A stretch of 64,000 nucleotides of DNA from the NCBI GenBank assembly GCA_016195265.1, contig JACPZW010000037.1, positions 1-64,000 of the forward strand, given 5' to 3'. This DNA is from Acidobacteriota bacterium. Lineage in GTDB: Bacteria > Acidobacteriota > Vicinamibacteria > Vicinamibacterales > CAVVIG01. Position numbers and translations under genes: made by a program. Shown here in pieces: positions 39,937-54,178 of the stretch (positions within the stretch are counted from its first letter, which is position 1; every line of letters starts with the position of its first letter). The notes beneath the pieces are model-generated. The model was not told the origin of the DNA and did not search any database. It worked only from the letters and a program-made list of their open reading frames with translations.

Positions 39937-41325
39937 ATGAGCCACAAACCCAAGACCGTCCTCATTGTCGACGACGACGAGGGGATGCGGGACACGCTGA
40001 CCGCGATCCTCAAGCGGGAGTATCGCGTGCTGCGGGTCTCGAGCGGGGAGGCGGCTCTTCCTATCCTCAACCGCGAGGACGTGGACCTCATGCTGCTCGA
40101 CGTCCGCCTGCCGGGCATCAGCGGGTTCGAGGTCCTCCGCATCGTCAAGGAAAACTACAGCTTGGTCGAGGTCCTCATGATCTCGGCCATCAACGAGATC
40201 GAGACCGCCGTGCAGGCGATGAAGCACGGCGCGTATCACTACGTCACGAAGGACTTCGACTACGACCAGTTGCGGTCGCTCGTGCGGAACGCGAGCGAGC
40301 GGCAGGATCTGAATCGTCAGGTGTTGACGCTGTCGGCGCAGGTCGCCGATCAGGCCGAGCGCGAGTTCATCGTCGGCCCGAGCAAGATGACGCGCGACAT
40401 CGTCGATCTCGTCCACAAGATCGCGAAGCTCTCGGCCACGGTGCTGATTCTCGGCGAGAGCGGCACGGGCAAGGAGCTGCTCGCACGGCTGATTCACCGC
40501 GAGGCCGGCGATCCCGAAGCGCCGTTCATCGCGGTCAATCTGGCCGCGATTCCGCGCGAGCTCGTGGAAAGCACGCTGTTCGGGCACGAGCGCGGCGCGT
40601 TCACCGGCGCGCATCGGCAGCAGCTCGGCAAGTTCGAGCTCGCATCGAACGGCACGCTGTTCCTCGACGAAATCGGCGACCTACGTCTGGATCTCCAGGC
40701 CAAACTCCTGCGCGCCATTCAGGAAGGCGAGATCGAGCGCGTCGGCGGGACCAAGCCTATCAAGACCGAATTCCGCCTCATCGCGGCAACCAACATCGAT
40801 CTTGATAAGGCGGTGAAAGAGGGACGGTTCCGGGAAGATCTCTACTATCGCGTCAACGTCATCCCGATCAAGCTGCCGCCGCTGCGCGAACGCACGGAAG
40901 ACGTCCCGCAGCTCGCGGACTTCTTCCTCCGGCGGTACAACACGCGGTTCCGGAAGAGCATTCAAGGCATCACCGACTCCACGATGGCGTTCCTAAAGAA
41001 GTACTGGTGGCCAGGCAACATCCGGGAGCTCGAAAACCTGATAGAGCGGCTGGTCGCCGTCAGCGATAAGGACTACATCTCTGAAGAAGATCTACCGCTC
41101 GAGTTTCATTTCGCGCAGCTGGAGCCGCGGGGCGCGGGCACAGACAATCTGTTTGAGGATGCGACGAATACCTTCGAGCGGAACTTCATTTTGCGCGCGC
41201 TCGAGAAATGCGGCTGGAATGTGACTGGGACTGCGGAGTACCTTGGAATTCCGTTGAGTACGTTGAAGTACAAGATGGACAAGCTCGACGTGCGTCAACT
41301 TGCGAAACGATTGCGCGGAGCATGA
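39937..41325 (+). CDS. NtrC-family sigma-54-dependent response regulator
   Basis: 462 residues: receiver domain (1-120, phospho-acceptor Asp 55 in LMLLDVRLPG), AAA+ domain with Walker A GESGTGKE (173-180), the sigma-54 contact loop GAFTGA (220-225), Walker B TLFLDEIGD, and a C-terminal Fis-type helix-turn-helix (WNVTGTAEYLGIPLSTLKYK). ATG at 39937. It lies 293 bp upstream of the radical SAM gene, whose promoter has sigma-54 form; the Cache kinase at 44663 is the likely partner. Confidence 0.93.
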   Translation: MSHKPKTVLIVDDDEGMRDTLTAILKREYRVLRVSSGEAALPILNREDVDLMLLDVRLPGISGFEVLRIVKENYSLVEVLMISAINEIETAVQAMKHGAYHYVTKDFDYDQLRSLVRNASERQDLNRQVLTLSAQVADQAEREFIVGPSKMTRDIVDLVHKIAKLSATVLILGESGTGKELLARLIHREAGDPEAPFIAVNLAAIPRELVESTLFGHERGAFTGAHRQQLGKFELASNGTLFLDEIGDLRLDLQAKLLRAIQEGEIERVGGTKPIKTEFRLIAATNIDLDKAVKEGRFREDLYYRVNVIPIKLPPLRERTEDVPQLADFFLRRYNTRFRKSIQGITDSTMAFLKKYWWPGNIRELENLIERLVAVSDKDYISEEDLPLEFHFAQLEPRGAGTDNLFEDATNTFERNFILRALEKCGWNVTGTAEYLGIPLSTLKYKMDKLDVRQLAKRLRGA

Positions 41326-41544
41326 GCAGAGCCAAGAACCTGACCGCGACGGTCAAGTCATTGCCTTTCCCACCTAATCCTCTGATTTCCCAGCACTAAC
41401 CTCGATATACCAACAGTCATTCGGACACGCGCGGACAATGAATTGCCCGCGGTGACCGACGGCTCCAACTGACTCTTCTCCCGCGGCTCAATCGATCGGT
41501 TGATTCCCCGAGCAAAACCTGTGCATTTTCCTCGACGCCGCAGG
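41326..41544. other. Regulator-to-maturase spacer
   Basis: About 220 bp without a gene, lower GC than its surroundings, no dispersed repeat. Binding sites for the NtrC-type activator would be expected here, but I could not identify a convincing palindrome. Confidence 0.4.
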
Positions 41545-41559
41545 TGGAACACCCGTTGC
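41545..41559 (+). promoter_or_regulatory. Sigma-54-type promoter
   Basis: TGGAACACCCGTTGC matches the -24/-12 consensus TGGCACG-N4-TTGC with two mismatches and exact GG-to-GC spacing. Transcription would start near 41571, upstream of the ATG at 41618 and downstream of an alternative ATG at 41564, which helps choose the start. Confidence 0.65.
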
Positions 41560-41617
41560 AGCCATGCATTGCGACCGGCGTGCTGAAACGTTCTACCAAG
41601 AATTGATCCAGCCGTAC

Positions 41618-43060
41618 ATGCAGCCTTCGATATTCAACCTTCGGGTTCCGCTCGCGGCGCGCGACGACGTGTTCCTGATGAACACGCTGACCGACGCGCA
41701 GCTGGTGGTGTCGCCGGATGTGACGGCGCTACTCGATGAGATCGCGCGCGGCGAATTTCGTGGGGCGAGCGGCGTTGCTCCGGAAACGCGCGAAGCACTC
41801 GACCTGCTGTGGGAAAACGGCTTCCTCGTCACCGACGGCGACACCGAGCGCCGCGCGCTCAACGACTACCTGACCGGCGTCAAGAACGACAGCTCGGAAT
41901 TCAGCGTGACCGTTTTGACGACGCTGCAGTGCAACTTCGCGTGCGACTACTGCTTTCAGGGCGATCACGGCGACTACAACGATCGCGCCGACAAGATGTC
42001 GCTCGCCACGGCCGCGCGCGTCGGCGACTGGATCGAGCGCGAGCTCGACCGCGTGCGGCCCGAGCGATTCGGGCTGACGTTCTTTGGCGGCGAACCGCTG
42101 CTCAATCTGCCGGTGATGTACCTGCTCGCCGAGCGCCTGTGGCGCGCCGCCGAGGCACGCGGCGTGACGATGTACACCAACATCATCACCAACGGCCTGC
42201 TGCTGACCGAGGACGTCGTCGATCGCATGCTGCCGTTCGGACTGAACGGCATCAAGATCACGCTCGACGGCGACCGGGACACGCACAACCGCATGCGGCC
42301 GTTGCGCGGCGGCCAGGGCACCTTCGATCGCATCGTCGAGAACATCCGTCGCGTGGCCGGCCGTTGCCGCATCGCGATCGGCGGCAACTTCGACGAGAGC
42401 TCGATCGACAGCTATCCCGCCCTGCTCGACTTTCTGAAAGCACAGGATTTCGCCGACAAGCTCGTCAAGGTCAATTTCAAGCCCATCGTGCGCGCGGAGC
42501 CCGTCGCGCCCAAAGGGATGATCCCGCTGACGCTGGTCGGCGCGGCCGGCGCCCCCGGTGCAAAAGAGAACCTCAAGGGCACCTGCATGACGTCGGTCGG
42601 TTCCGGCGCGGGCAAGGCGTGCGATTCGTGCGGCGGCCTGGAAGACAAATGGACGGCGCTGCGCGAGGACACGAAGCGGCACGGGTTCCCGACGGCGGAT
42701 GGCGTGCCGAAGGGCATGTGCCACGTCCACCGGACCCACGCGCACACCATCGGCCCAGACGGTTCGCTCTACGCGTGCCCCGGTTTCACCGGTCAGCTCG
42801 CGATGTCCACGGGCCATATCGACGATCGCAAGGACGCGCTGCGCGAGTCAGCGCTCGAGAAATTCAATCGACTGCATCCGTGGAAAGAGTGTGGAGACTG
42901 CGCGTTCATCCCGACGTGTGCCGGGGGGTGCGTGGCGGCCTCGCATTCACAGACTGGTGACATGAACACGCCGACATGTCACAAGTCCAGTTTTGAATCG
43001 GCGCTCATCGCGCTGGCGCATGAAGCGGCCAGCAAAGACGCGGCTACTCAGGCTGCGTAG
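41618..43060 (+). CDS. Radical SAM/SPASM peptide maturase
   Basis: 480 residues. An N-terminal RiPP-recognition-like region (1-95) precedes the radical SAM core with Cys 105, 109 and 112 in LQCNFACDYCFQGDHG, then FFGGEPLLN and NIITNGLLL strands. The C-terminal SPASM region binds two more Fe-S clusters: Cys in GTCMTSVG, ACDSCGG, GMCHVH, LYACPGF, WKECGDCAFIPTCAGGC and PTCHKSS. Such enzymes install C-C, C-S or cyclophane links in short precursor peptides. The start at 41618 is downstream of the predicted transcription start. The precursor gene follows 9 nt later, with its ribosome site overlapping this stop codon. Confidence 0.9.
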   Translation: MQPSIFNLRVPLAARDDVFLMNTLTDAQLVVSPDVTALLDEIARGEFRGASGVAPETREALDLLWENGFLVTDGDTERRALNDYLTGVKNDSSEFSVTVLTTLQCNFACDYCFQGDHGDYNDRADKMSLATAARVGDWIERELDRVRPERFGLTFFGGEPLLNLPVMYLLAERLWRAAEARGVTMYTNIITNGLLLTEDVVDRMLPFGLNGIKITLDGDRDTHNRMRPLRGGQGTFDRIVENIRRVAGRCRIAIGGNFDESSIDSYPALLDFLKAQDFADKLVKVNFKPIVRAEPVAPKGMIPLTLVGAAGAPGAKENLKGTCMTSVGSGAGKACDSCGGLEDKWTALREDTKRHGFPTADGVPKGMCHVHRTHAHTIGPDGSLYACPGFTGQLAMSTGHIDDRKDALRESALEKFNRLHPWKECGDCAFIPTCAGGCVAASHSQTGDMNTPTCHKSSFESALIALAHEAASKDAATQAA

Positions 43061-43069
43061 GAGACTACA

Positions 43070-43162
43070 ATGAAGATCACAGTTGTGAAGACCGTCTCGA
43101 GCAAGAAACCCGCCGGCTACTGCGATATCTGGGTCGACTTTCCGGCAATGAACAAGAAGTAA
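43070..43162 (+). CDS. Putative RiPP precursor peptide, 30 residues
   Basis: Tiny gene with a good ribosome site (ggag, 6 nt before ATG). Lys-rich leader MKITVVKTVSSKKPAG, then core GYCDIWVDFPAMNKK. The core has aromatic residues spaced Y17-C-D, W21-V-D and F24, matching the aromatic-x-D/N triplets that three-residue cyclophane-forming radical SAM enzymes modify; the single Cys 18 is an alternative crosslink site. Placed directly between maturase and oligopeptide-binding protein genes (2 nt to the next ATG). I do not know a named family. Its identity as substrate is inferred from position and composition. Confidence 0.75.
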   Translation: MKITVVKTVSSKKPAGYCDIWVDFPAMNKK

Positions 43163-43164
43163 CG

Positions 43165-44658
43165 ATGGACGACCAGCGCCGGTTGTTCGGTCTGGCTACG
43201 GTGTGCGTGGCGGTGGCGGCTGTGCTGCTCACCGCCTGCCGGCCGGCCACCGGCGAGCAGTCGTCTAGCTCCGATCCGATCGCGCTTCACGTCGGCGTTC
43301 CTCAATTGCCAGCGAACGCGACGAACGGTCTTCGGCAACTGGCTCAGAACCAGGCTGTCGAGTCGCTCGCTAGCGTGGCGGACGATGGCCGGCTGCGGCC
43401 GTCGCTGGCAAAGGACTGGCGAGTCAGTACGGACGGTTTAACGCTGACCGTGAATCTCAGGTCAGGCGTAACCTTTCACGACGGCACGCCGGTGACCTCG
43501 ACAATCGTCGCAAACTCCATCAGGCAGACGTTGCCATCGGTTATGGGGACTGCGTTCACCGACATCGAGGATGTGGCCACTGCAGGCGAAACGCAGGTCG
43601 TTGTGCGCTTGCGACACCGGTCGCCCTTCCTGCTCGACGCTCTGGAGGTGCCCGTCCCGAAACCGGGAGCGGCGCTCACGGGAACGGGGCCGTTCATCGT
43701 TGAAGATCAGAAATCGCCAACCGAACTCAAAGCCAACCCTAAGTACTATCTCGGACGGCCAACTGTCGATCGGATCCTTGTGGAGACGTTCCCCAGCGTA
43801 CGAACGGCCTGGGCCGAGATGCTGCGAGGACGGATCGACATGTTGTACGAGGTTGGCGTCGACGAACTGGACTTGCTCGAAGCGTCAACGAATGTCGCGA
43901 TCTTCACGTTTGCTCGCGCCTATCAGTACGCCGTTGTCTTGAACCAGGAGTCGGCAGGTCTGCGCTCCAAGGAGGTTAGACAAGCGCTCAACCTTTCGAT
44001 CGATCGAGATGCCCTTGTGCAAAAAGTTCTTCGAGGACACGGAACTGTTTCGTTCGGTCCGGTTTGGCCGCACAATTTCGCCGCTCGGGCAGACTGGCCC
44101 GTGTTCAGATTCGATCCAAAGTTGGCTGCTCAGAAGCTGGCGCAAACCAGCGGCTCACGAGGTGACCCGTTGCGCTTCACTTGTCTGGTTCGACCGAACG
44201 AACTTGATGAGCGAATGTCACTCGTTCTCAAGCAGCAACTGGAAGCAGTTGGCATCGACATGAACATCGAAGAAGCCGAAATGGATCGAATCATTGACTC
44301 TTTGAATCACCGCCGGTTCGACGCCGTGCTGCTCGAGTCGCCGAACGGACCTACTCTGCTACGTTCATATCGGTCATGGCACTCCGGCGGACCGATGAAC
44401 GCTCACAGCGAAACTGTCGACACCGCGCTAGACGCGATTCGATATGCGAAATCTGAAGAAGAGTATACGAAAGCCGTTGGGTCGTTCCAGCAAGCTGCTA
44501 TAGACGACCCTCCCGCGATTTTCCTCGCGTGGGTGGAGCGCGCACGAGCCGTGAGTAAGCGGTTCATTGTGCCGCTCGCCGAACCAGGACGTGATATTCT
44601 CAGCACCCTTCGGCTGTGGAAGCCAGCGACCGACCAGCGCGTAGCGAATCGGAACTAG
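43165..44658 (+). CDS. Oligopeptide-binding lipoprotein (ABC substrate-binding, family 5)
   Basis: 497 residues. Lipoprotein signal ending LLTAC (Cys 26), then the DppA/OppA fold: LAKDWRVSTDGLTLTVNLRS, VTFHDGTPVT and SFGPVWP-like segments. Family 5 binding proteins hold peptides of 2-5 residues or longer. No permease or ATPase genes are nearby, so it may act as a receptor rather than in uptake. GC content is visibly lower than in flanking genes, hinting at separate ancestry. Lies 4 nt upstream of the kinase gene. Confidence 0.88.
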   Translation: MDDQRRLFGLATVCVAVAAVLLTACRPATGEQSSSSDPIALHVGVPQLPANATNGLRQLAQNQAVESLASVADDGRLRPSLAKDWRVSTDGLTLTVNLRSGVTFHDGTPVTSTIVANSIRQTLPSVMGTAFTDIEDVATAGETQVVVRLRHRSPFLLDALEVPVPKPGAALTGTGPFIVEDQKSPTELKANPKYYLGRPTVDRILVETFPSVRTAWAEMLRGRIDMLYEVGVDELDLLEASTNVAIFTFARAYQYAVVLNQESAGLRSKEVRQALNLSIDRDALVQKVLRGHGTVSFGPVWPHNFAARADWPVFRFDPKLAAQKLAQTSGSRGDPLRFTCLVRPNELDERMSLVLKQQLEAVGIDMNIEEAEMDRIIDSLNHRRFDAVLLESPNGPTLLRSYRSWHSGGPMNAHSETVDTALDAIRYAKSEEEYTKAVGSFQQAAIDDPPAIFLAWVERARAVSKRFIVPLAEPGRDILSTLRLWKPATDQRVANRN

Positions 44659-44662
44659 GCCG

Positions 44663-46426
44663 ATGACCCTCAGGATCCGTCGCATCGCCTACCGCTTCGC
44701 GCTCCTGCTGGCGCTGGCGGCGGTCGTGCCGCTGATCGCATACGGCTTCGTCTCGATCCTCTCGCTGCAGCGCGGCACGCGCGAATCGGTCATCGCCGGC
44801 AACCAGAACGTCGCTACGCGCGCCGCCGAGGAAATCCGCCGCTACGTTGTCACGCACGCGGACCTGCTGCGCGCGCTCTCCGCCGACCTGCAGGACACTG
44901 GCCTCGCGCAGCACCAGCAGGATCAGATTCTCAAGAACTTCGTCCTGCAGTTCCGCGAGTTCCGCGAGATCACGCTGTTCGACGAAAACGGCGCGACCGT
45001 CGCCACGAGCCGCGTCGGCAAGCCGCGCATCACGATTCCGAAAAACGGTCAGCCGGTGGCGGAACGCGTGACGATGTCGTCCATCCACGTCGACGACGAC
45101 CTGCTGCCGACGACCGTGTTCTCGGTCCGCCTGACGAAACTCAACGAGCCCTCGGGCTGGCTGACCGGCGAGTTCAACCTCGAGGAGATGTGGCGGATGG
45201 TCGACCACATCCGCATCGGCGACCACGGCTACGCGCTCGTCATCGCGCCGGGTGGCGAACTGATCGCGCACGGCGACCCCGACAAGAAGGCGCTGGTCGC
45301 GCGGACCGTGAACATGGCCGCGCATCCGCTGATGGCGATTGCGCCCGCGCAGGCCGACGCGCCGACGGTGTCGCGCGAGTACGTGGATGCGGACGGCCAG
45401 AACAATCTCGGCGTCGCGGCGCGCATCGCCCAGCTCGGCTGGACCGTGATCGTCGAGCAGCCGACCGCCGAAGCATACGCAAACGCCACCGTGCTGCAGC
45501 GGCAGCTCCTCATCGCGATCTCGCTCGGGCTGCTGCTGATGATTTCAGTCGGGTATCTCTTCGGCCGGTCGTTCATCAATCCGATCCTCGCGCTCAAGCG
45601 CGGCACGCAGGCCGTGGCCGAGGGCCAGCTCGACACGCGCGTCGACATCCGCACCGGCGACGAGTTCGGCGATCTCGGCGATGCGTTCAACACGATGGCC
45701 GATCGGCTCGTGCAGCTGCAGGAAGACGTCAAACGCCAGGAGCGCCAGACGATGTTCGGGCGCGTCGCCGCCGGCCTCGTCCACGATCTCTCGCACCCGA
45801 TTCAGAACATCGGCAACAGCCTGCGCCTCCTGGAACGGGACGACCTTGACGCCGAGTCGCGCGATCTGTTCCGTCGCACGATCGGACGCGAGATCGCCAC
45901 GCTGAAGCGGTTCATGGACGACCTGCGGCATCTGGTCAAGCCGAAGCCGATTGAGCGCTTCGCCATGGATGTCACCGGATCGGTCGCCGAGATCGTCGAG
46001 GCCATGCGCGGTGAAGCCGAGCGGAGTGGATTGACCGTCGAGACGTCGTACGCGGAAGGCCCGTTGCTGATCAACGGCGACCGCTTCGCGCTCGGACGCG
46101 TGTATCGCAATCTCATCAGCAATGCGATTCAGGCGACCGAGCCCGGCGGCCGCGTCACCGTCACGACGGCGCGCTCCGGCGACCGCGTCGAAGTCCGCGT
46201 GGCCGATACGGGATCAGGGATTCCCGCGGATCGCCTTACGGCCATCTTCGACGATTTTGTAACGACGAAACGCCGAGGCCTCGGCTTGGGCTTGGCCATT
46301 TCCAAGCGCATCGTCGAACAACTCGACGGCACGATTGTTGTAGAAAGCGAAGTCGGACGCGGGACGTCGTTCACGCTGGGCTTCCCGGCCAGCGATGAAA
46401 GCTCACGGCACGCGGCGGCAAGTTGA
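44663..46426 (+). CDS. Cache-HAMP sensor histidine kinase
   Basis: 587 residues: transmembrane helix (about 11-33), extracytoplasmic double Cache domain (35-280), second helix (281-300), HAMP (301-355), HisKA with phospho-acceptor His 374 in AAGLVHDLSHPIQNIG, and HATPase with NAIQAT, DTGSGIP and GLGLGLAISK. It lacks a receiver, so it needs a partner; the NtrC-type regulator on the other side of the peptide genes is the obvious one. The binding lipoprotein before it may deliver the ligand. Confidence 0.9.
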   Translation: MTLRIRRIAYRFALLLALAAVVPLIAYGFVSILSLQRGTRESVIAGNQNVATRAAEEIRRYVVTHADLLRALSADLQDTGLAQHQQDQILKNFVLQFREFREITLFDENGATVATSRVGKPRITIPKNGQPVAERVTMSSIHVDDDLLPTTVFSVRLTKLNEPSGWLTGEFNLEEMWRMVDHIRIGDHGYALVIAPGGELIAHGDPDKKALVARTVNMAAHPLMAIAPAQADAPTVSREYVDADGQNNLGVAARIAQLGWTVIVEQPTAEAYANATVLQRQLLIAISLGLLLMISVGYLFGRSFINPILALKRGTQAVAEGQLDTRVDIRTGDEFGDLGDAFNTMADRLVQLQEDVKRQERQTMFGRVAAGLVHDLSHPIQNIGNSLRLLERDDLDAESRDLFRRTIGREIATLKRFMDDLRHLVKPKPIERFAMDVTGSVAEIVEAMRGEAERSGLTVETSYAEGPLLINGDRFALGRVYRNLISNAIQATEPGGRVTVTTARSGDRVEVRVADTGSGIPADRLTAIFDDFVTTKRRGLGLGLAISKRIVEQLDGTIVVESEVGRGTSFTLGFPASDESSRHAAAS

Positions 46427-46464
46427 TTAAGGGGATCCGGATGACACCGGATATGGAGGGTGAC

Positions 46465-46704
46465 ATGTTCCGAACGCTCGTGAAGACCGATGCGCTGGCG
46501 ATAGACGAAACGACGGTGCCTGTGCGGTATTTCGAGTTACGGACGCTGCGCGGCGCGCGCCGCTACAGCGCGGAAATCCTGTTGGGCCCCGAGGACCGGA
46601 TCATTCTCGACGACGACTCGATGACCAATCTCGAAGCGCGCGCGACCCGGCTCGTGCCGGCCACGCTCTACAGCCGCGTCCTCGCCCGCGCGACAGCTGC
46701 CTAG
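46465..46704 (+). CDS. Small protein of unknown function downstream of kinase
   Basis: 79 residues, beta-rich (VPVRYFELRTLRGARRYSAE). ATG at 46465 has an excellent ribosome site ggaggg 5 nt upstream, so earlier in-frame ATGs are rejected. Same direction as the kinase, 38 nt after its stop; may belong to the same transcript. Family not recognised. Confidence 0.65.
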   Translation: MFRTLVKTDALAIDETTVPVRYFELRTLRGARRYSAEILLGPEDRIILDDDSMTNLEARATRLVPATLYSRVLARATAA

Positions 46705-48415: not shown

Positions 48416-50230
48416 ATGCAGATTCTGCCCGATCACGTGCGACCCGGCGCCCTGGTTCGCGTCCGGCACGAGCGCTGGCGCGTGGTGGACGTCCGCCCGC
48501 ACGACGATTGCCAAATCGTCACGCTGTCCGGCCTGTCGCCGCCGCACCTGGGCGTCGAGCGTCGCGTCTTGGCGCCGTTCGATGTCTTCGACCCCGTCGC
48601 CGGCGGCGGCCGGCTTCGCATCGTGCGCCGGACGCGGTGGCGCCGCGCGTGCCGGGCGCTGCTGGCGGCCGACGCGCCTCCCGCCGCGCTGCGTGCGGCC
48701 CGCGACGCTCGCATCGACCTGCTGCCGCATCAACTCGAGCCGGCGATGGCCGTTCTCCGGGGAACGGGATCGCGGTTTCTGCTCGCCGACGAAGTGGGGC
48801 TCGGCAAGACCATTCAAGCCGGCCTTGTGCTGGCCGAACTTCACGCGCGCGGGGCGATCGAGCGCGTGCTTGTGATCGCGCCGGCCGGTCTGCGCGATCA
48901 GTGGTCGCACGAACTGACGACCCGATTCGCGATGGAGGCGTCGCCGGTGGACGCGCGCGTGCTGCGGCAGCTCGCCGCCACGCTGCCGGTCGGCGTGAAT
49001 CCCTGGTCGACAATCGCGCTGGCGATCGCGTCGGTGGATTACGTCAAGCGTCCCGAGGTGCTCCCCGCCGTCGCCAGCTGCGCGTGGGATGCCATCGTCG
49101 TGGACGAGGCGCACGGTGTCGCGGGCGATTCCGATCGGCACGCGGCCGTCAATCTGCTGACGGCGCACGCGGCGTACGTCCTGCTGCTGACGGCGACACC
49201 GCACAGCGGCGATGGCGCGGCGTTCACGTCGCTCTGCGCCCTGGGGTCCGCGCACGGCGATCCACTGATCGTTTTTCGCCGGACCCGCGCGACTGTGCGT
49301 CCAGGCGCGCCGCGGCACGTGCACACGCTGCGCGTCCGGCTCGGCGAACGCGAGCGGCGCATGCACGAGCGGCTCGCGCGCTACACCACCGCTGTCCGAT
49401 CAGAGCGCCCTGCGGCATGGCTCGCGCTTTCCGTGCTACACAAACGCGCACTCTCGAGCGCATGGGCGCTGGCACAGTCGGTGGATCGCCGTCTCGTCGC
49501 GCTCGCCGCGCCTTCGCCCGGCGACACCGGCGATCAACTGACGTTGCCGCTCGGCGATCCGAACGGTGAGTTCACCGCGGCCGACGAGGCGCCCGCATGG
49601 CCGGCCGGTATCGGCCTTTCGGATCCGGCGCGCGAGCGCGATCTGCTCGCGGCGCTGGCAGCGGGTGCGAGATCGGCGGCGCACACCGAAGGCAAGTTGT
49701 CCGCGCTCCGCCGCCTGCTGCGGCGCACGCGCGAGCGCACCATCGTGTTCACCGAGTATCGCGACACGCTGCTGCACGTCCGGCGGGTGCTGGGTACGTC
49801 CGCCGGGCCCGTCGCGATCCTGCACGGCGGCCTCACCTGCAGCGAGCGGGCGGTCGTGCTGCGGGACTTCAACGGCGGCGCGTGTCGCGTCTTGCTCGCG
49901 ACCGACGCCGCCGGCGAAGGGCTGAATCTGCACGAGGCCTGCCGGCTGGTCGTCAATCTCGAGCTGCCATGGAACCCCATGCGCCTGGAGCAGCGCATCG
50001 GCCGCGTCGATCGCATCGGCCAGCGGCGCGTGGTCCACGCGTTTCACTTGATAGCGGATGGGACGGGCGAGCCGGCGCTCGCGGCGCGGCTCCGCGCGCG
50101 CATCGCCCGCGCCCGGGCCGAAGTTGGCGCGCCGAATCCGCTCGGCGCCGACGACGAGCGCGCGGCGGCGCGGCTCGTCATCACGGGAGACTCGAACGAT
50201 GACGCTCTTGACGATCGATCTGCGAGCTGA
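48416..50230 (+). CDS. SNF2-family helicase/ATPase
   Basis: 604 residues. Motif I LADEVGLGKTIQAG (about 123), motif II VVDEAHG (about 230), motif III LLTATPHSG, then the second RecA domain with TIVFTEYRDTLLHV, ATDAAGEGLNLH and motif VI QRIGRVDRIGQ. Translocase on DNA; no nuclease domain. First of three overlapping genes with a DNA methyltransferase at the end. DrmD-like helicases of DISARM are longer, so this is at most a distant relative. Confidence 0.87.
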   Translation: MQILPDHVRPGALVRVRHERWRVVDVRPHDDCQIVTLSGLSPPHLGVERRVLAPFDVFDPVAGGGRLRIVRRTRWRRACRALLAADAPPAALRAARDARIDLLPHQLEPAMAVLRGTGSRFLLADEVGLGKTIQAGLVLAELHARGAIERVLVIAPAGLRDQWSHELTTRFAMEASPVDARVLRQLAATLPVGVNPWSTIALAIASVDYVKRPEVLPAVASCAWDAIVVDEAHGVAGDSDRHAAVNLLTAHAAYVLLLTATPHSGDGAAFTSLCALGSAHGDPLIVFRRTRATVRPGAPRHVHTLRVRLGERERRMHERLARYTTAVRSERPAAWLALSVLHKRALSSAWALAQSVDRRLVALAAPSPGDTGDQLTLPLGDPNGEFTAADEAPAWPAGIGLSDPARERDLLAALAAGARSAAHTEGKLSALRRLLRRTRERTIVFTEYRDTLLHVRRVLGTSAGPVAILHGGLTCSERAVVLRDFNGGACRVLLATDAAGEGLNLHEACRLVVNLELPWNPMRLEQRIGRVDRIGQRRVVHAFHLIADGTGEPALAARLRARIARARAEVGAPNPLGADDERAAARLVITGDSNDDALDDRSAS

Positions 50231-50807
50231 CGCCGTGGCGGAAGCGGCACGTCTCGCCGCGGCACGCGCGCTTGTGCGCGGGGGCGACCCTGGAAGCGCT
50301 GGAGACGTGATCGCGTTGGCGCAGCTGGACGCGGATGCCGCGTGGATCATGACCGCCCGCCCGCCGGCGTTGCGTCAGGCGCTCGGCGGCCGAGCGCTCG
50401 CGATCTGGCGCGTCGCCTGCGAAGACGCAAGCGGCCGCATCGTCGATTCGCGCCTCGTCGCGATCGCAATCGATGTGTTCCCCGCCGGCGTGCCTCCGCG
50501 CACGCGCAGGCACATCGAAGCCCTGGCCAACGCGATCGAGCGCGAGGGGGTGGAGATCGTCGAGCGCTCCAGCGAGGCCTGGCGTACCGAGGTCGAGCGC
50601 ACGACGCGGGCGTTCGCGGCCGCACGCGCGTCACGCGCGCGCGGACTCGACGATGACGCCGCGTCCGGGGATCGTCGGCTGATCCAGCCAGGTCTCTTCG
50701 ATCGCCGGGCGCTGCGCGCCGCACGTCCCCCTGCGGGTCACGCGAACGCGACCGTAGCGGCCGTGACGATCGCGCGGCCCCGGCTTCGGCTCGTGGTGGT
50801 GCCATAG
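50199..50807 (+). CDS. Unknown protein between helicase and methyltransferase
   Basis: 202 residues, Ala/Arg-rich, mostly helical, no motif recognised. ATG at 50199 lies inside the end of the helicase gene (32-nt overlap) with gggaga upstream, and its TAG overlaps the next start (TAGTGATG). Tight coupling implies it is a subunit or regulator of the same system. Confidence 0.7.
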   Translation: MTLLTIDLRADAVAEAARLAAARALVRGGDPGSAGDVIALAQLDADAAWIMTARPPALRQALGGRALAIWRVACEDASGRIVDSRLVAIAIDVFPAGVPPRTRRHIEALANAIEREGVEIVERSSEAWRTEVERTTRAFAAARASRARGLDDDAASGDRRLIQPGLFDRRALRAARPPAGHANATVAAVTIARPRLRLVVVP

Positions 50808-50809
50808 TG

Positions 50810-53800
50810 ATGCTGCCGGGAGTCGACGGCCTCCTTCTCGCCGGCACGGTCGTCGAACGTCACGTGGGTGTAGCGACGGGCGAAATGGCCGTCGAGCGCG
50901 CGCGTCGTGAGTTGATCGCGTGGCGCCAGAAGTGCGGCACGCTGGGCCCGGCGTCCTCGCTGCGGGCCCTGCTGCAGCACGGCGCGGCGCCTCTGACGGC
51001 GGCGCTCGGCTTTGACCCGCCGGCGGCGGTCGAGCCGGCCGGCCCTGCGCTCGGCGCGACGCTGCGCGCCGGCGGACGCTCGGTCGCGCTGCTGGTTGCC
51101 CCGTGGGGCGAGGGACTCGACCCGCTGTGGCGCCTCGCGGTAACGCAGGCGCTGCGGCGCGCCGCCGCCTGGTGTCTGCTCTTCAACGGCGCGCACCTGC
51201 GCATCGTCGATGCGGGACGGCTCTACGCGCGGCGCTACATTCAGTTCGATCTCGACCTTGCGATCGATCACCCGCACGCGTTCGCCGCGATGTGGCGCGC
51301 GGCCCGCGCCGCCTCGCTGACGGCCGGCGCGGACGCGGCGGGATCGCTGCACGCACTCGTAGCCGAATCCGATCGGCACGCTGCCGCGGTGTGCCGATCT
51401 CTGCGCGACGGCGTGCTCGCCGCGTCGGGCGACGTGCTGCAGGCGCTCGTCGCCGGCCGTTCCGCCGCCCGGCTGCCGCCGATCGGCGACAGCTTCGAGC
51501 AGGCGCTGACGATCGTCTACCGCATGCTCTTCCTGCTTTTCGCCGAAGCGCGCGGGCTCGTGCCGCTCTGGCATCCGGTGTATCGCGAGAGCTACAGCCT
51601 CGAGACGCTGCGCGACCTCGCGGAGCGATCGGCGCCGTCGCCGGGTTTGTGGGACGCGCTGCGCGCCATGGCGCGGCTGGCCCACGCAGGCTGCCATGCC
51701 GGCGATTTGCGCGTGACGCCGTTCAACGGCCGTCTGTTCGCTCCGGCCCGTACGCCCCTCGCGGAGCGGCGCGATCTCGATGATGACGCCGCGCAACGCG
51801 CCGTGCTGGCGCTCTCGACGCGGCCGGCGCCCGATCGCGCCGGGCGCGAGCGGATCGCGTACCGTGAGCTCGGCGTCGAGCAGCTCGGCGCCGTCTACGA
51901 AACGCTCCTCGACTACACGCCACGCGTCAAACGGCCGTTGACGCGCGGCCGCGCGCGCGCGGCGGGCGCGCCGGGCACCGCTGGCAGCATCGTTACGCTG
52001 GAGTCCGGGTCGGGCGTGCGGAAGGCGACCGGGACGTTCTACACGCCCCAGCCGATCGCCGATTACCTCGTCCGGCGAACGCTCGGTCCGCTCGTCCGCG
52101 ACGCGACGCCCGAGCGCATTCTGCAACTGCGCATCGTCGATCCGGCGATGGGGAGCGGCGCGTTTCTGGTCGCGGCCTGCCGGTATCTGGCCGGCGCGTA
52201 CGAGGCCGTGCTCGTCCGCGCGGGCGGATGCCACCCGAGCGATTTCGACGAGGCCGAACGCGTCACGCTGCGCCGGACGATTGCCGAACGCTGTCTGTAC
52301 GGCGTCGACCTGAATCCGATGGCCGTGCAACTCGCGCGGCTGTCGCTCTGGCTCGCGACGCTGGCGGCCGATCGGCCGCTCAGCTTCCTGGATCACCGGC
52401 TGCAGACGGGCGACAGCCTGGTCGGCGCCTGGCTTGCCGACCTTCGGCATGCGCCGAACGTCCGCCGGCACGCGCGGACGGGCGCGGACCTGCCGCTGTT
52501 TGGCGACGATGCGGTCGTCGAGGCGCTTCGGGATTCGCTGCCGGTACGCTTCTCGCTCGAATCGGCGCCGAACGACACGCTCGCGCAGGTCCGTGCGAAA
52601 GAGCGCGCGTTCGCGGCGCTCACCGCGCGCGACGCCGTGTTGTCGCGATGGAAGCGCGTCGCGCATCTCTGGTGCTCGGCGTGGTTCACGCGGGCCGAGG
52701 GCGCCGACGCCGTGCCGGCGTCCGCGTTCGGCCCGCTGTCCGACGCGATTCTCGGCAGCCCGAGCGTGCTGCCGGCGCAGACGTCGGCCGCGCTGCTCGA
52801 CGCGTCGGATCGGACGGCGGAGGCGCGGCGGTTCTTTCACTGGGAACTGGAATTCCCGGAAGTGTTCTTCGGCGCCGACGGACGCCGCCTGCCGCTTGCC
52901 GGCTTCGACGCGGTGATCGGGAATCCGCCGTGGGACATGGTGCGCGCCGACGCGGGCGCCGCCGATGATCGCGCGAGCGCCCGCGCCGCAACCGCCGCGA
53001 TGCTGCGGTTCACGCGGGATGCGGGCGTGTACACGGCGCAGTCCGACGGCCACGCCAACCGTTATCAGCTGTTCGTCGAGCGCGCAATCGCACTCACGCG
53101 TCCGGGCGGCCGGATCGGACTCGTGCTGCCGTCGGGCCTGGCCGCCGATCACGGCAGCGCGCCGCTGCGGCGCCGGCTGTTCAACCACTGCGACGTCGAT
53201 GCGCTGGTCGGCGTGGACAACCATCGCGGCGTCTTCCCAATCCACCGGAGCATGCGATTCCTGCTGCTGACCGCGTCCGCGGGCTCGCCGACGACGCGCC
53301 TCGCCTGCCGCAGCGGGGTGAGCGACGCGGCCGATCTCGAGTCCGTCGGCGAGGATCCCGCCGAAACGTCGCCGTGGTTTCCCGTGCGCGTGACGCCTGC
53401 GTGGCTCGAGCGCGTGTCGGGACCCGGGCTCGCCGTGCCGGCGCTCAGGGACGCCGTCGATCTCGCCATCGTCGAGCGCGCGGCCACGCTGTTTCCGCCG
53501 CTGGGCGGCGCCGCGGGGTGGTCCGCGCATTTCGGCCGGGAGTTGAATGCGAGCGACGATCGCGCGGCGTTCCGCCCGGACCGCCTCGGCCTGCCCGTCA
53601 TCGACGGGAAGCATCTCGAGCCGTTCAGTGTCCGGCTGGGATCGGTCGGCCGCAGCATCAGGGCGGCGGATGCGCGGCGCCTGCTGCGCGCGGATCGTCA
53701 CGAGCGCCCGCGCCTCGCGTACCGCGACGTTGCAAGCGCGACGAACCGCGTGACGCTGATCGCGGCGATCCTTCCGGCGCACAGCGTGTCGACGCACACC

Positions 53801-54178
53801 GTCTTCTGCCTCCGCGATCCGCTGCCGCTCCGTGCGCAGCATTTCCTGTGCGGGCTGTTCAACAGCTTCGTCGTGAACTACCTGGTCCGGCTGCGCGTGA
53901 CCATGCACGTCACGACCGCGATGGTCGGGCAGTTGCCGATTCCGACGGCCGAGATCGCGCCTGGCGCGTTCGCCGAGATCGCCGCGCTCGCTCGCCTGCT
54001 GTCTCGTCGCTCCGATCCGCCGGCGCTCGCGCGGCTCAACGCGAGGGTGGCCGAGCTGTATCAGCTGAGCGTCCAGGAGTTCGAACACGTGCTGGGGACG
54101 TTTCCGTTGATTCCGATCGAGGAGCGACGAGAGACGCTGCGCACATATGCCACGGAGACACAGAGGACACGGAGATGA
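50810..54178 (+). CDS. Eco57I/type IIG-like adenine-specific DNA methyltransferase
   Basis: 1122 residues. The N-terminal 400 residues are unassigned. GTFYTPQPIADYLVRRTL introduces the N6-adenine MTase core, with SAM motif I DPAMGSGAFLV (about 444-454) and catalytic motif IV NPPWDM (about 705). The C-terminal half resembles a TaqI-type target-recognition domain (RVTMHVTTAMVGQLPIP). No clear PD-(D/E)XK site was seen in the N-terminal part, so it may be modification-only. ATG 50810; GTG 50807 also possible. Third gene of the helicase operon. Confidence 0.85.
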   Translation: MLPGVDGLLLAGTVVERHVGVATGEMAVERARRELIAWRQKCGTLGPASSLRALLQHGAAPLTAALGFDPPAAVEPAGPALGATLRAGGRSVALLVAPWGEGLDPLWRLAVTQALRRAAAWCLLFNGAHLRIVDAGRLYARRYIQFDLDLAIDHPHAFAAMWRAARAASLTAGADAAGSLHALVAESDRHAAAVCRSLRDGVLAASGDVLQALVAGRSAARLPPIGDSFEQALTIVYRMLFLLFAEARGLVPLWHPVYRESYSLETLRDLAERSAPSPGLWDALRAMARLAHAGCHAGDLRVTPFNGRLFAPARTPLAERRDLDDDAAQRAVLALSTRPAPDRAGRERIAYRELGVEQLGAVYETLLDYTPRVKRPLTRGRARAAGAPGTAGSIVTLESGSGVRKATGTFYTPQPIADYLVRRTLGPLVRDATPERILQLRIVDPAMGSGAFLVAACRYLAGAYEAVLVRAGGCHPSDFDEAERVTLRRTIAERCLYGVDLNPMAVQLARLSLWLATLAADRPLSFLDHRLQTGDSLVGAWLADLRHAPNVRRHARTGADLPLFGDDAVVEALRDSLPVRFSLESAPNDTLAQVRAKERAFAALTARDAVLSRWKRVAHLWCSAWFTRAEGADAVPASAFGPLSDAILGSPSVLPAQTSAALLDASDRTAEARRFFHWELEFPEVFFGADGRRLPLAGFDAVIGNPPWDMVRADAGAADDRASARAATAAMLRFTRDAGVYTAQSDGHANRYQLFVERAIALTRPGGRIGLVLPSGLAADHGSAPLRRRLFNHCDVDALVGVDNHRGVFPIHRSMRFLLLTASAGSPTTRLACRSGVSDAADLESVGEDPAETSPWFPVRVTPAWLERVSGPGLAVPALRDAVDLAIVERAATLFPPLGGAAGWSAHFGRELNASDDRAAFRPDRLGLPVIDGKHLEPFSVRLGSVGRSIRAADARRLLRADRHERPRLAYRDVASATNRVTLIAAILPAHSVSTHTVFCLRDPLPLRAQHFLCGLFNSFVVNYLVRLRVTMHVTTAMVGQLPIPTAEIAPGAFAEIAALARLLSRRSDPPALARLNARVAELYQLSVQEFEHVLGTFPLIPIEERRETLRTYATETQRTRR

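Follow-up and report, generated by a model that had tools for sequence, protein, structure and literature searches.

A candidate radical SAM peptide-signalling cassette attached to a sigma-54 regulator in Acidobacteria of the order Vicinamibacterales

Five consecutive genes in a 64,000-nucleotide stretch of an acidobacterial genome (assembly GCA_016195265.1, contig JACPZW010000037.1, positions 1 to 64,000; hereafter the window) encode an NtrC-type response regulator, a radical SAM/SPASM peptide maturase, a short precursor peptide, a family-5 solute (oligopeptide)-binding lipoprotein (SBP) and a sensor histidine kinase. All lie on the + strand, in the order that the original prediction had read from the DNA and that the translations and Pfam/NCBIfam searches bear out. 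The four genes that follow the regulator behave as a cassette that comes and goes at one chromosomal site. They are preceded by a conserved sigma-54-type promoter and palindromes, and the same palindrome motif recurs in relatives at a second locus. We propose, tentatively and with close to an even chance of being right, that the cassette makes a modified-peptide signal, that the SBP and the kinase read it, and that the signal promotes its own synthesis through sigma-54 and acts on peptide uptake and proteolysis.

A single scan of the genome collection yielded 51 related loci with the maturase, and the gene order is kept in all of them as far as the contig continues. The regulator lies 5′ of the maturase in 49 of the 51, the SBP gene 3′ of it in 43 and the kinase gene in 39; loci that have no SBP or kinase gene end at or near a contig end. 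An outcome named in advance as speaking against a linked system, maturase homologues never lying beside an SBP or kinase gene, is the opposite of what was found within the order. The relatives found through the maturase are labelled Acidobacteria or Vicinamibacterales, and the same gene order occurs in some metagenome-assembled genomes labelled Terriglobia, Luteitalea, Acidimicrobiia or Sulfopaludibacter. The flanks are conserved too, with LipB, E2 and E3 on one side and HU and QueF on the other, so that synteny alone is weak evidence. The conservation of these housekeeping genes would also fit a reading in which inheritance alone keeps the cassette genes side by side, within a conserved chromosomal block bounded by E3/NtrC and HU/QueF, and no joint function links them.

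The distribution of the genes speaks against such passive inheritance. Among 149 genomes of the order, the maturase has a match in 62 (spread over 10 families), the kinase in 66, the SBP in 65, the weakest of these being distant paralogues elsewhere in the genome, and the regulator in 87. Maturase and kinase occur together in 57 genomes, the maturase alone in 5, the kinase alone in 9 and neither in 78 (Fisher p = 1.9e-25, shared ancestry ignored). A check of three of the nine kinase-only genomes disposed of them as carriers of an independent kinase: the gene lies at a contig end in G229 and G452, and G468 holds a decaying cassette. The maturase is gone from G468 (locus L092), the SBP is reduced to a C-terminal fragment and the kinase frame is broken, while the regulator is intact (78% identity); a congener, G269, has lost the entire cassette. 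The decaying state is known from this one case.

The regulator has a wider distribution than the cassette. The maturase accompanies it in 59 of the 87 regulator-positive genomes and has no match in the other 28, some of which contig breaks may explain. Fifteen regulator-positive, maturase-negative genomes were fetched, and in these the cassette is truly missing at its site: in 14, HU comes 29-186 bp after the regulator and the flanks are of the usual kind, and in the fifteenth (L109) 6 kb of other genes occupy the site. The open reading frames (ORFs) at that site (L109:9404-15033, genome G411) resemble, by eye, TadE/VWA-type pilus or surface proteins. The regulator had been regarded as part of a dedicated RiPP locus (RiPP, ribosomally synthesised and post-translationally modified peptide); this view was abandoned, as the regulator persists in genomes without the cassette. 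Given the joint absence at one site and the decay in G468, the four cassette genes appear to be mutually dependent, and the regulator appears not to need them. The inheritance reading is largely refuted and very improbable: four genes come and go together while their flanks stay, a conserved sigma-54 promoter heads them, and the SBP and kinase coevolve beyond what the regulator explains.

The regulator (39937-41325, +) has the REC-AAA+ sigma-54 activator-Fis helix-turn-helix architecture, with Response_reg, Sigma54_activat and HTH_8 all above the Pfam cut-offs. Its translation contains GAFTGA, which we assume to have its customary meaning in regulators of this type. In the gap between regulator and maturase, a promoter of the -24/-12 type (TGGAAC-ACCCG-TTGCA; 41545-41560, +) lies 3′ of palindromes resembling upstream activating sequences. 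One of these, GGTCAAGTCATTGCCT (41351-41366), has one mismatch to GGNCAA-N4-TTGNCC and is conserved across 45 intergenic regions, and another, GGACAATGAATTGCCC (41433-41448), matches the pattern perfectly. A weak match with two mismatches (41330-41345) lies 21 bp 5′ of the first.

These elements were counted in 45 of 52 loci (the 51 and the window); L011, L015, L024, L040, L041, L045 and L054 were dropped because the regulator is missing, the start is misplaced or the gap exceeds 700 nt. The 45 loci hold 39 perfect palindromes against 0.02 expected, and 31 regions have a strict promoter, equivalent to that of the window, at most 200 nt from the maturase ATG, against 0.03 expected from shuffles. 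At least two palindromes with at most two mismatches lie 5′ of the promoter in 38 of the 45 regions, single two-mismatch palindromes being common by chance (7.5 expected in all). In many loci two palindromes are spaced by 20-21 bp, and a third follows some 80-100 bp downstream. The palindrome pattern came from inspecting an alignment of 14 of the 45 regions by eye, and the strict promoter pattern was set after inspecting promoters, so the 31 regions outside the palindrome definition were recounted. Of these, 20 contain perfect sites, 21 in total against 0.01 expected, and strict promoters number 19. The source genome (4.5 Mb in 87 contigs) has one copy of rpoN, so that the features of a sigma-54-dependent two-component system are all present: a REC, Sigma54_activat and HTH_8 regulator, a kinase, a -24/-12 promoter with palindromes 5′ of it, and rpoN. 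Sigma-54 control of the cassette, as predicted from the window alone, is strongly supported by the conserved promoter, the enhancer-like palindromes and rpoN, and we infer that the regulator is the protein that binds the palindromes.

The maturase gene is listed as an ORF at 41564-43060 (+). Its start is probably M19, giving 41618-43060, because the promoter lies right against the first ATG and most relatives align only from residue 19 onwards. Radical_SAM (PF04055, 61.5 bits, cut-off 29.5) and SPASM (TIGR04085, 51.1 bits, cut-off 27) domains are both above cut-off and, with the CxxxCxxC core, place the protein among the SPASM radical SAM enzymes in the broad sense; C105, C109 and C112 and ten further cysteines are invariant in 28 aligned maturases. 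The best PDB matches of the AlphaFold model (mean predicted local distance difference test score 75) are structures of CteB (5why/5wgg), with a TM-score to the query of 0.59-0.60. Assignment to the geopeptide enzymes (TIGR04280, 251.5 bits against a curated cut-off of 400) or to the PapB enzymes (NF047865, 132.6 bits against 340) was rejected.

Twelve distant maturase relatives outside the order (23-29% identical) have a different neighbourhood. No tblastn match to the cassette SBP or kinase was obtained near any of the 12, and an ABC exporter lies within about 3 kb in 6 of them. The idea that such relatives never lie near a kinase was ruled out by one locus, L097, where an unrelated pair, an OmpR-type regulator and a HAMP-HisKA kinase, is encoded about 1.3 kb upstream. 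The maturase of L097 is followed by a 1056-residue protein in which Reg_prop and Y_Y_Y repeats are joined to a protein kinase of the Ser/Thr type, and L103 has an ORF of similar size; the two loci are another possible link between such maturases and peptide sensing.

The precursor gene (43070-43162, +) encodes the 30-residue peptide MKITVVKTVSSKKPAGYCDIWVDFPAMNKK, whose core has Cys18 and a C-x4-D spacing. Its homologues are about 30 residues long and follow the pattern MKI.V.KK.....KP..[FY]CP[WF]..[DE]. Such an ORF lies directly 3′ of the maturase gene in 44 of 47 assessable loci (L010, L044, L055, L057 and L058, at contig ends, were left out), and the cassette thereby has the short conserved precursor gene by which a RiPP locus is recognised. 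Because 26 of these peptides served to train the precursor profile, its hits are partly circular; outside the training set, 15 loci score E <= 1.2e-9, L053 scores 5.3e-7 and the interrupted precursor of L009 scores 8.5e-9, and the precursors of L049 and of the cut-off L011 were read by eye. The ratio of non-synonymous to synonymous differences (pN/pS) is 0.38 over eight pairs, two of them unequal in length and imperfectly aligned. In L041 (9434-10673), four near-identical precursor copies and one precursor without cysteine lie between the maturase and SBP genes.

Among 46 distinct precursors of the cysteine type, 44 have the C-x4-[D/E] spacing and 31 have a tryptophan. PapB is described as tolerating CX0D to CX6D spacings, with the extremes accepted only incompletely, and Glu as well (PMC9413430). 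The conserved spacing, the CteB-like model of the maturase and the spacing and Glu tolerance of PapB make a Cys-Asp/Glu thioether across C-x4-[D/E] the most likely bond in the precursor. The gap between the precursor and SBP genes is 2 nt in the window. In two relatives a terminator-like hairpin with a T-run was seen by eye between these genes (L030:9460-9540 and L049:9560-9635), which suggests that expression of the peptide gene differs in level from that of the receiver genes there.

The SBP (43165-44658, +) belongs to SBP_bac_5 (PF00496, 185 bits, cut-off 32.4). Its Cys25, which we take to be the lipobox cysteine, is invariant in 31 aligned homologues. It is the most divergent product of the locus, with a mean identity of 36%, compared with 40% for the precursor, 55% for the kinase, 62% for the maturase and 73% for the regulator. 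Neither a permease nor an ATPase lies beside the SBP gene at the locus, where the precursor and kinase genes flank it, and the locus is not one of an ABC importer. The broader statement that the genome has no permease for such an SBP was dropped: OppC_N gave no hit above cut-off, yet a Dpp-type SBP with DppB is encoded elsewhere in the genome.

The best NCBIfam matches of the SBP, all below cut-off, are the nickel-type NikA/Opp5A and the staphylopine-type CntA. This raises the alternative that the modified peptide is a metal-binding or redox compound whose complex the SBP recaptures, in the manner of nickel-metallophore SBPs, with the kinase reporting metal status. The cysteine and acidic residues of the precursor would suit such a role. 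The peptide of the window has a single cysteine and no histidine, though, the cut-offs of the metal SBP models are missed, and the genes predicted to be co-regulated in relatives are those of a peptide importer beside a protease, not metal genes; the metal reading is improbable.

The kinase (44663-46426, +) has a dCache-HAMP-DHp-CA organisation, with dCache_1 (50.7 bits, cut-off 45), HAMP and HATPase_c above cut-off. HisKA is below it (21.2 against 26.9), and H374 is invariant in 22 aligned kinases. The structure model points to a tandem dCache sensor, with VIA-align matches to 5ltv_E (Z 20.0, root-mean-square deviation 2.4 over 203 residues) and 3li9 (Z 19.7, root-mean-square deviation 2.9 over 221 residues). 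The Foldseek/VIA-align matches of the kinase are otherwise dominated by the catalytic core, and the absence of LuxQ from those shown is uninformative either way. In a mirror-tree comparison of 29 loci, which uses the slow regulator as a species proxy and permutations that ignore relatedness, the SBP and kinase distances correlate with r = 0.82, and with 0.67 after the regulator distances are removed. The corresponding values are 0.65 (partial 0.45) for peptide and kinase, 0.60 (0.37) for peptide and maturase, and 0.57 (0.37) for peptide and SBP. Phosphotransfer from this kinase to the regulator is suggested by their gene neighbourhood.

Outside the cassette, palindromes were found at one recurring locus in five genomes, of which G107, G301 and G269 are without the cassette and G293 and G028 carry it. 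The locus holds a subtilase (Peptidase_S8; only a weak, broken similarity in G301) that in some loci is preceded by a small reading frame resembling an excisionase-type helix-turn-helix protein. An HD-GYP-GAF protein follows the subtilase in four of the five genomes. In all but G269, the opposite flank of the subtilase holds a family-5 SBP with Dpp-type permeases. A TGGYAY-N5-NTGCC element is kept between palindromes and subtilase in G107, G301, G293 and G028 (by eye). Eight loci were read with subtilase, HD-GYP protein and Dpp-type SBP together, the SBP gene being divergent from that of the subtilase. The same arrangement of secreted subtilase, HD-GYP-GAF protein and, mostly, divergent Dpp-type importer is seen at L139-L142, L144 and L170-L174, with palindromes in many copies. 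Among 17 stretches around palindrome sites, five lie at the importer/subtilase locus, and a second recurring locus was not seen by eye in the 17.

The importer was surveyed at 55 loci, made up of the 30 best SBP matches, 20 that were picked and 5 found through the HD-GYP protein. A palindrome with at most one mismatch lies at most 500 nt 5′ of the Dpp-type SBP gene in 32 of 39 regulator-positive genomes (32 of 40 loci, the window's own genome, G000, being counted twice and negative). These 39 were drawn from the 60 genomes that have both the regulator and the importer SBP. In family f2, eight genomes with the importer and without a regulator match have no palindrome there (0 of 8). Over the 149 genomes, 60 have both regulator and importer SBP, 27 the regulator only, 18 the SBP only and 44 neither (p = 2.3e-6, relatedness uncorrected). 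A second target of the regulator is predicted in relatives, namely a Dpp-type importer, often divergent from an operon of a secreted subtilase and an HD-GYP protein. The statement that no exporter or protease was visible stands, as to the exporter, for the conserved cassette; a protease has appeared at this other locus in relatives.

Taken together, these patterns suggest a circuit in which the maturase would cross-link the precursor, most likely by a Cys-to-Asp/Glu thioether across C-x4-[D/E], and the modified peptide would leave the cytoplasm by an unlinked route. The lipoprotein SBP may then bind the exported peptide, and the dCache domain of the kinase may read the SBP-ligand complex, or the ligand itself, and set the phosphorylation of the NtrC-type regulator. 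The regulator would bind the two or three palindromic enhancers and activate the sigma-54 promoter of the maturase-precursor-SBP-kinase genes. In relatives, the same regulator would act on the Dpp-type importer and the divergent secreted subtilase/HD-GYP operon, and the peptide could thereby tune extracellular proteolysis and peptide uptake. We infer the cross-link chemistry, the export, the binding by the SBP, the identity of the signal and the direction of signalling from the sequence patterns described above.

Several observations weigh against this circuit. Export is unexplained, as the conserved cassette genes include no exporter, protease or peptidase. The regulator is also found without the cassette kinase, and a different kinase may feed it. 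Two in-frame stops interrupt the precursor of L009, a close relative (L009:3375-3467), with the core letters conserved; no precursor was found in L030 and L046, the latter with less than 100 nt left; two cysteine precursors have no acidic residue; and seven loci have a second, cysteine-less precursor type (...PWLVD...), which a cysteine thioether cannot explain and for which Trp- or Asp-centred chemistry is possible. The nickel-type matches of the SBP and the species proxy used in the mirror-tree comparison are further points of this kind.

On the side of the regulon, 7 of the 39 regulator-positive genomes have no palindrome at the importer, and 4 of 15 importer loci from genomes without a regulator match do have one (G423, G430 and G480, each less than 85% complete, and G479, 97% complete). 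Over ten genomes the palindrome has 38 sites against 55 for its reversed control, and exceeds the control in four of the ten. Single sites were accordingly rejected as a genome-wide marker of the regulon, and the analysis relied only on sites that recur, that come in pairs or that are marked out by their placement. The genome to which the window belongs has a rearranged subtilase locus and, upstream of its Dpp-type SBP gene, only a two-mismatch palindrome, so that the wider regulon is better supported for the relatives than for this genome.

The same importer and protease could also belong to a response to nutrient peptides. What the SBP and kinase sense would then be ordinary peptides from outside the cell, such as subtilase products, and the modified peptide would not be the signal but an output, perhaps an antimicrobial or a protease inhibitor. 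The shared palindromes at a peptide importer beside a secreted protease fit this, several solved sequence relatives of the SBP bind peptides, and the peptide coevolves less with the SBP than the SBP does with the kinase. The conserved cassette has no exporter, however, compared with the ABC exporter near 6 of the 12 distant maturase relatives, and the kinase and SBP decay or vanish along with the maturase, which is why sensing seems to need the peptide. We consider the ordinary-peptide explanation unlikely, if the most serious of the alternatives.

A further step from the modified-peptide signal would be RiPP-based quorum sensing in a Gram-negative soil phylum. A radical-SAM-modified peptide would be read through an oligopeptide-binding lipoprotein and a dCache kinase, and the removable cassette, plugged into a sigma-54 regulator that had earlier governed peptide uptake and secreted proteolysis, would turn this nutrient regulator into a population-density switch for a public good. 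It is the promoter logic that points to autoinduction by the mature peptide. This reading we regard as possible but doubtful. If the circuit is correct, it would provide common and poorly studied soil Acidobacteria with peptide signalling whose regulon can be read, assign a function to a so far unassigned group of radical SAM peptides, and connect RiPP chemistry with a receptor made of binding protein and kinase and with an enhancer code for sigma-54. The main claims are testable, thanks to the clean presence and absence at one site and to the palindrome that the loci share.

Two further features lie 3′ of the kinase gene. A small conserved ORF of 80 codons (46462-46704, +) has tblastn matches 3′ of the kinase gene in part of the loci, and Pfam and NCBIfam searches with it returned no matching model. 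Beyond QueF, the window holds a DISARM-like pair (48416-50230 and 50807-54178, +) that flanks a 249-residue ORF; its members are a DrmD-like SNF2 helicase (282 bits) and a methyltransferase of DrmMI type (352 bits).

The original prediction knew of no described system with this gene set. Our literature search agrees, with no description of the set found in the titles and abstract starts listed, subscription papers and preprints lying outside its scope. The best named family for the maturase is that of the geopeptide-type radical SAM/SPASM maturases, whose cut-off it misses and which none of 396 genomes of the phylum reaches. The ranthipeptide/SCIFF systems (PapB-PapA, CteB-CteA) also use thioether-forming SPASM maturases, with CteB as the nearest fold and PapB as a sequence relative. 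They differ in that the cut-off of the PapB model is not reached, the precursor here has one cysteine instead of several and a cysteine-less second type in seven loci, and the cluster contains an SBP, a kinase and a sigma-54 activator. SCIFF peptides are listed with quorum sensing in a review table (PMC8326336).

The receiver resembles LuxP-LuxQ, where a binding protein is encoded beside a tandem-PDC (dCache) kinase. LuxQ, a tandem-PDC kinase, is described as reading autoinducer-2 through periplasmic LuxP (PMC8534201). The present system, by contrast, has a family-5 peptide-type lipoprotein, a sigma-54 response regulator and a gene for a modified peptide, and the relation between SBP and kinase is suggested by their coevolution. 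In logic only, the cassette is comparable to Agr/Fsr quorum sensing, which joins a peptide signal and a two-component system to control of secreted proteases. Fsr is reported to control gelatinase and a serine protease (PMC5454873). Those systems belong to Firmicutes, whereas the cassette is found in Acidobacteria and has a radical SAM maturase, a predicted binding-protein relay and a sigma-54 promoter. The parts and the logic are thus known, and it is their combination, plugged into an older sigma-54 regulator, that is new as far as we have searched.

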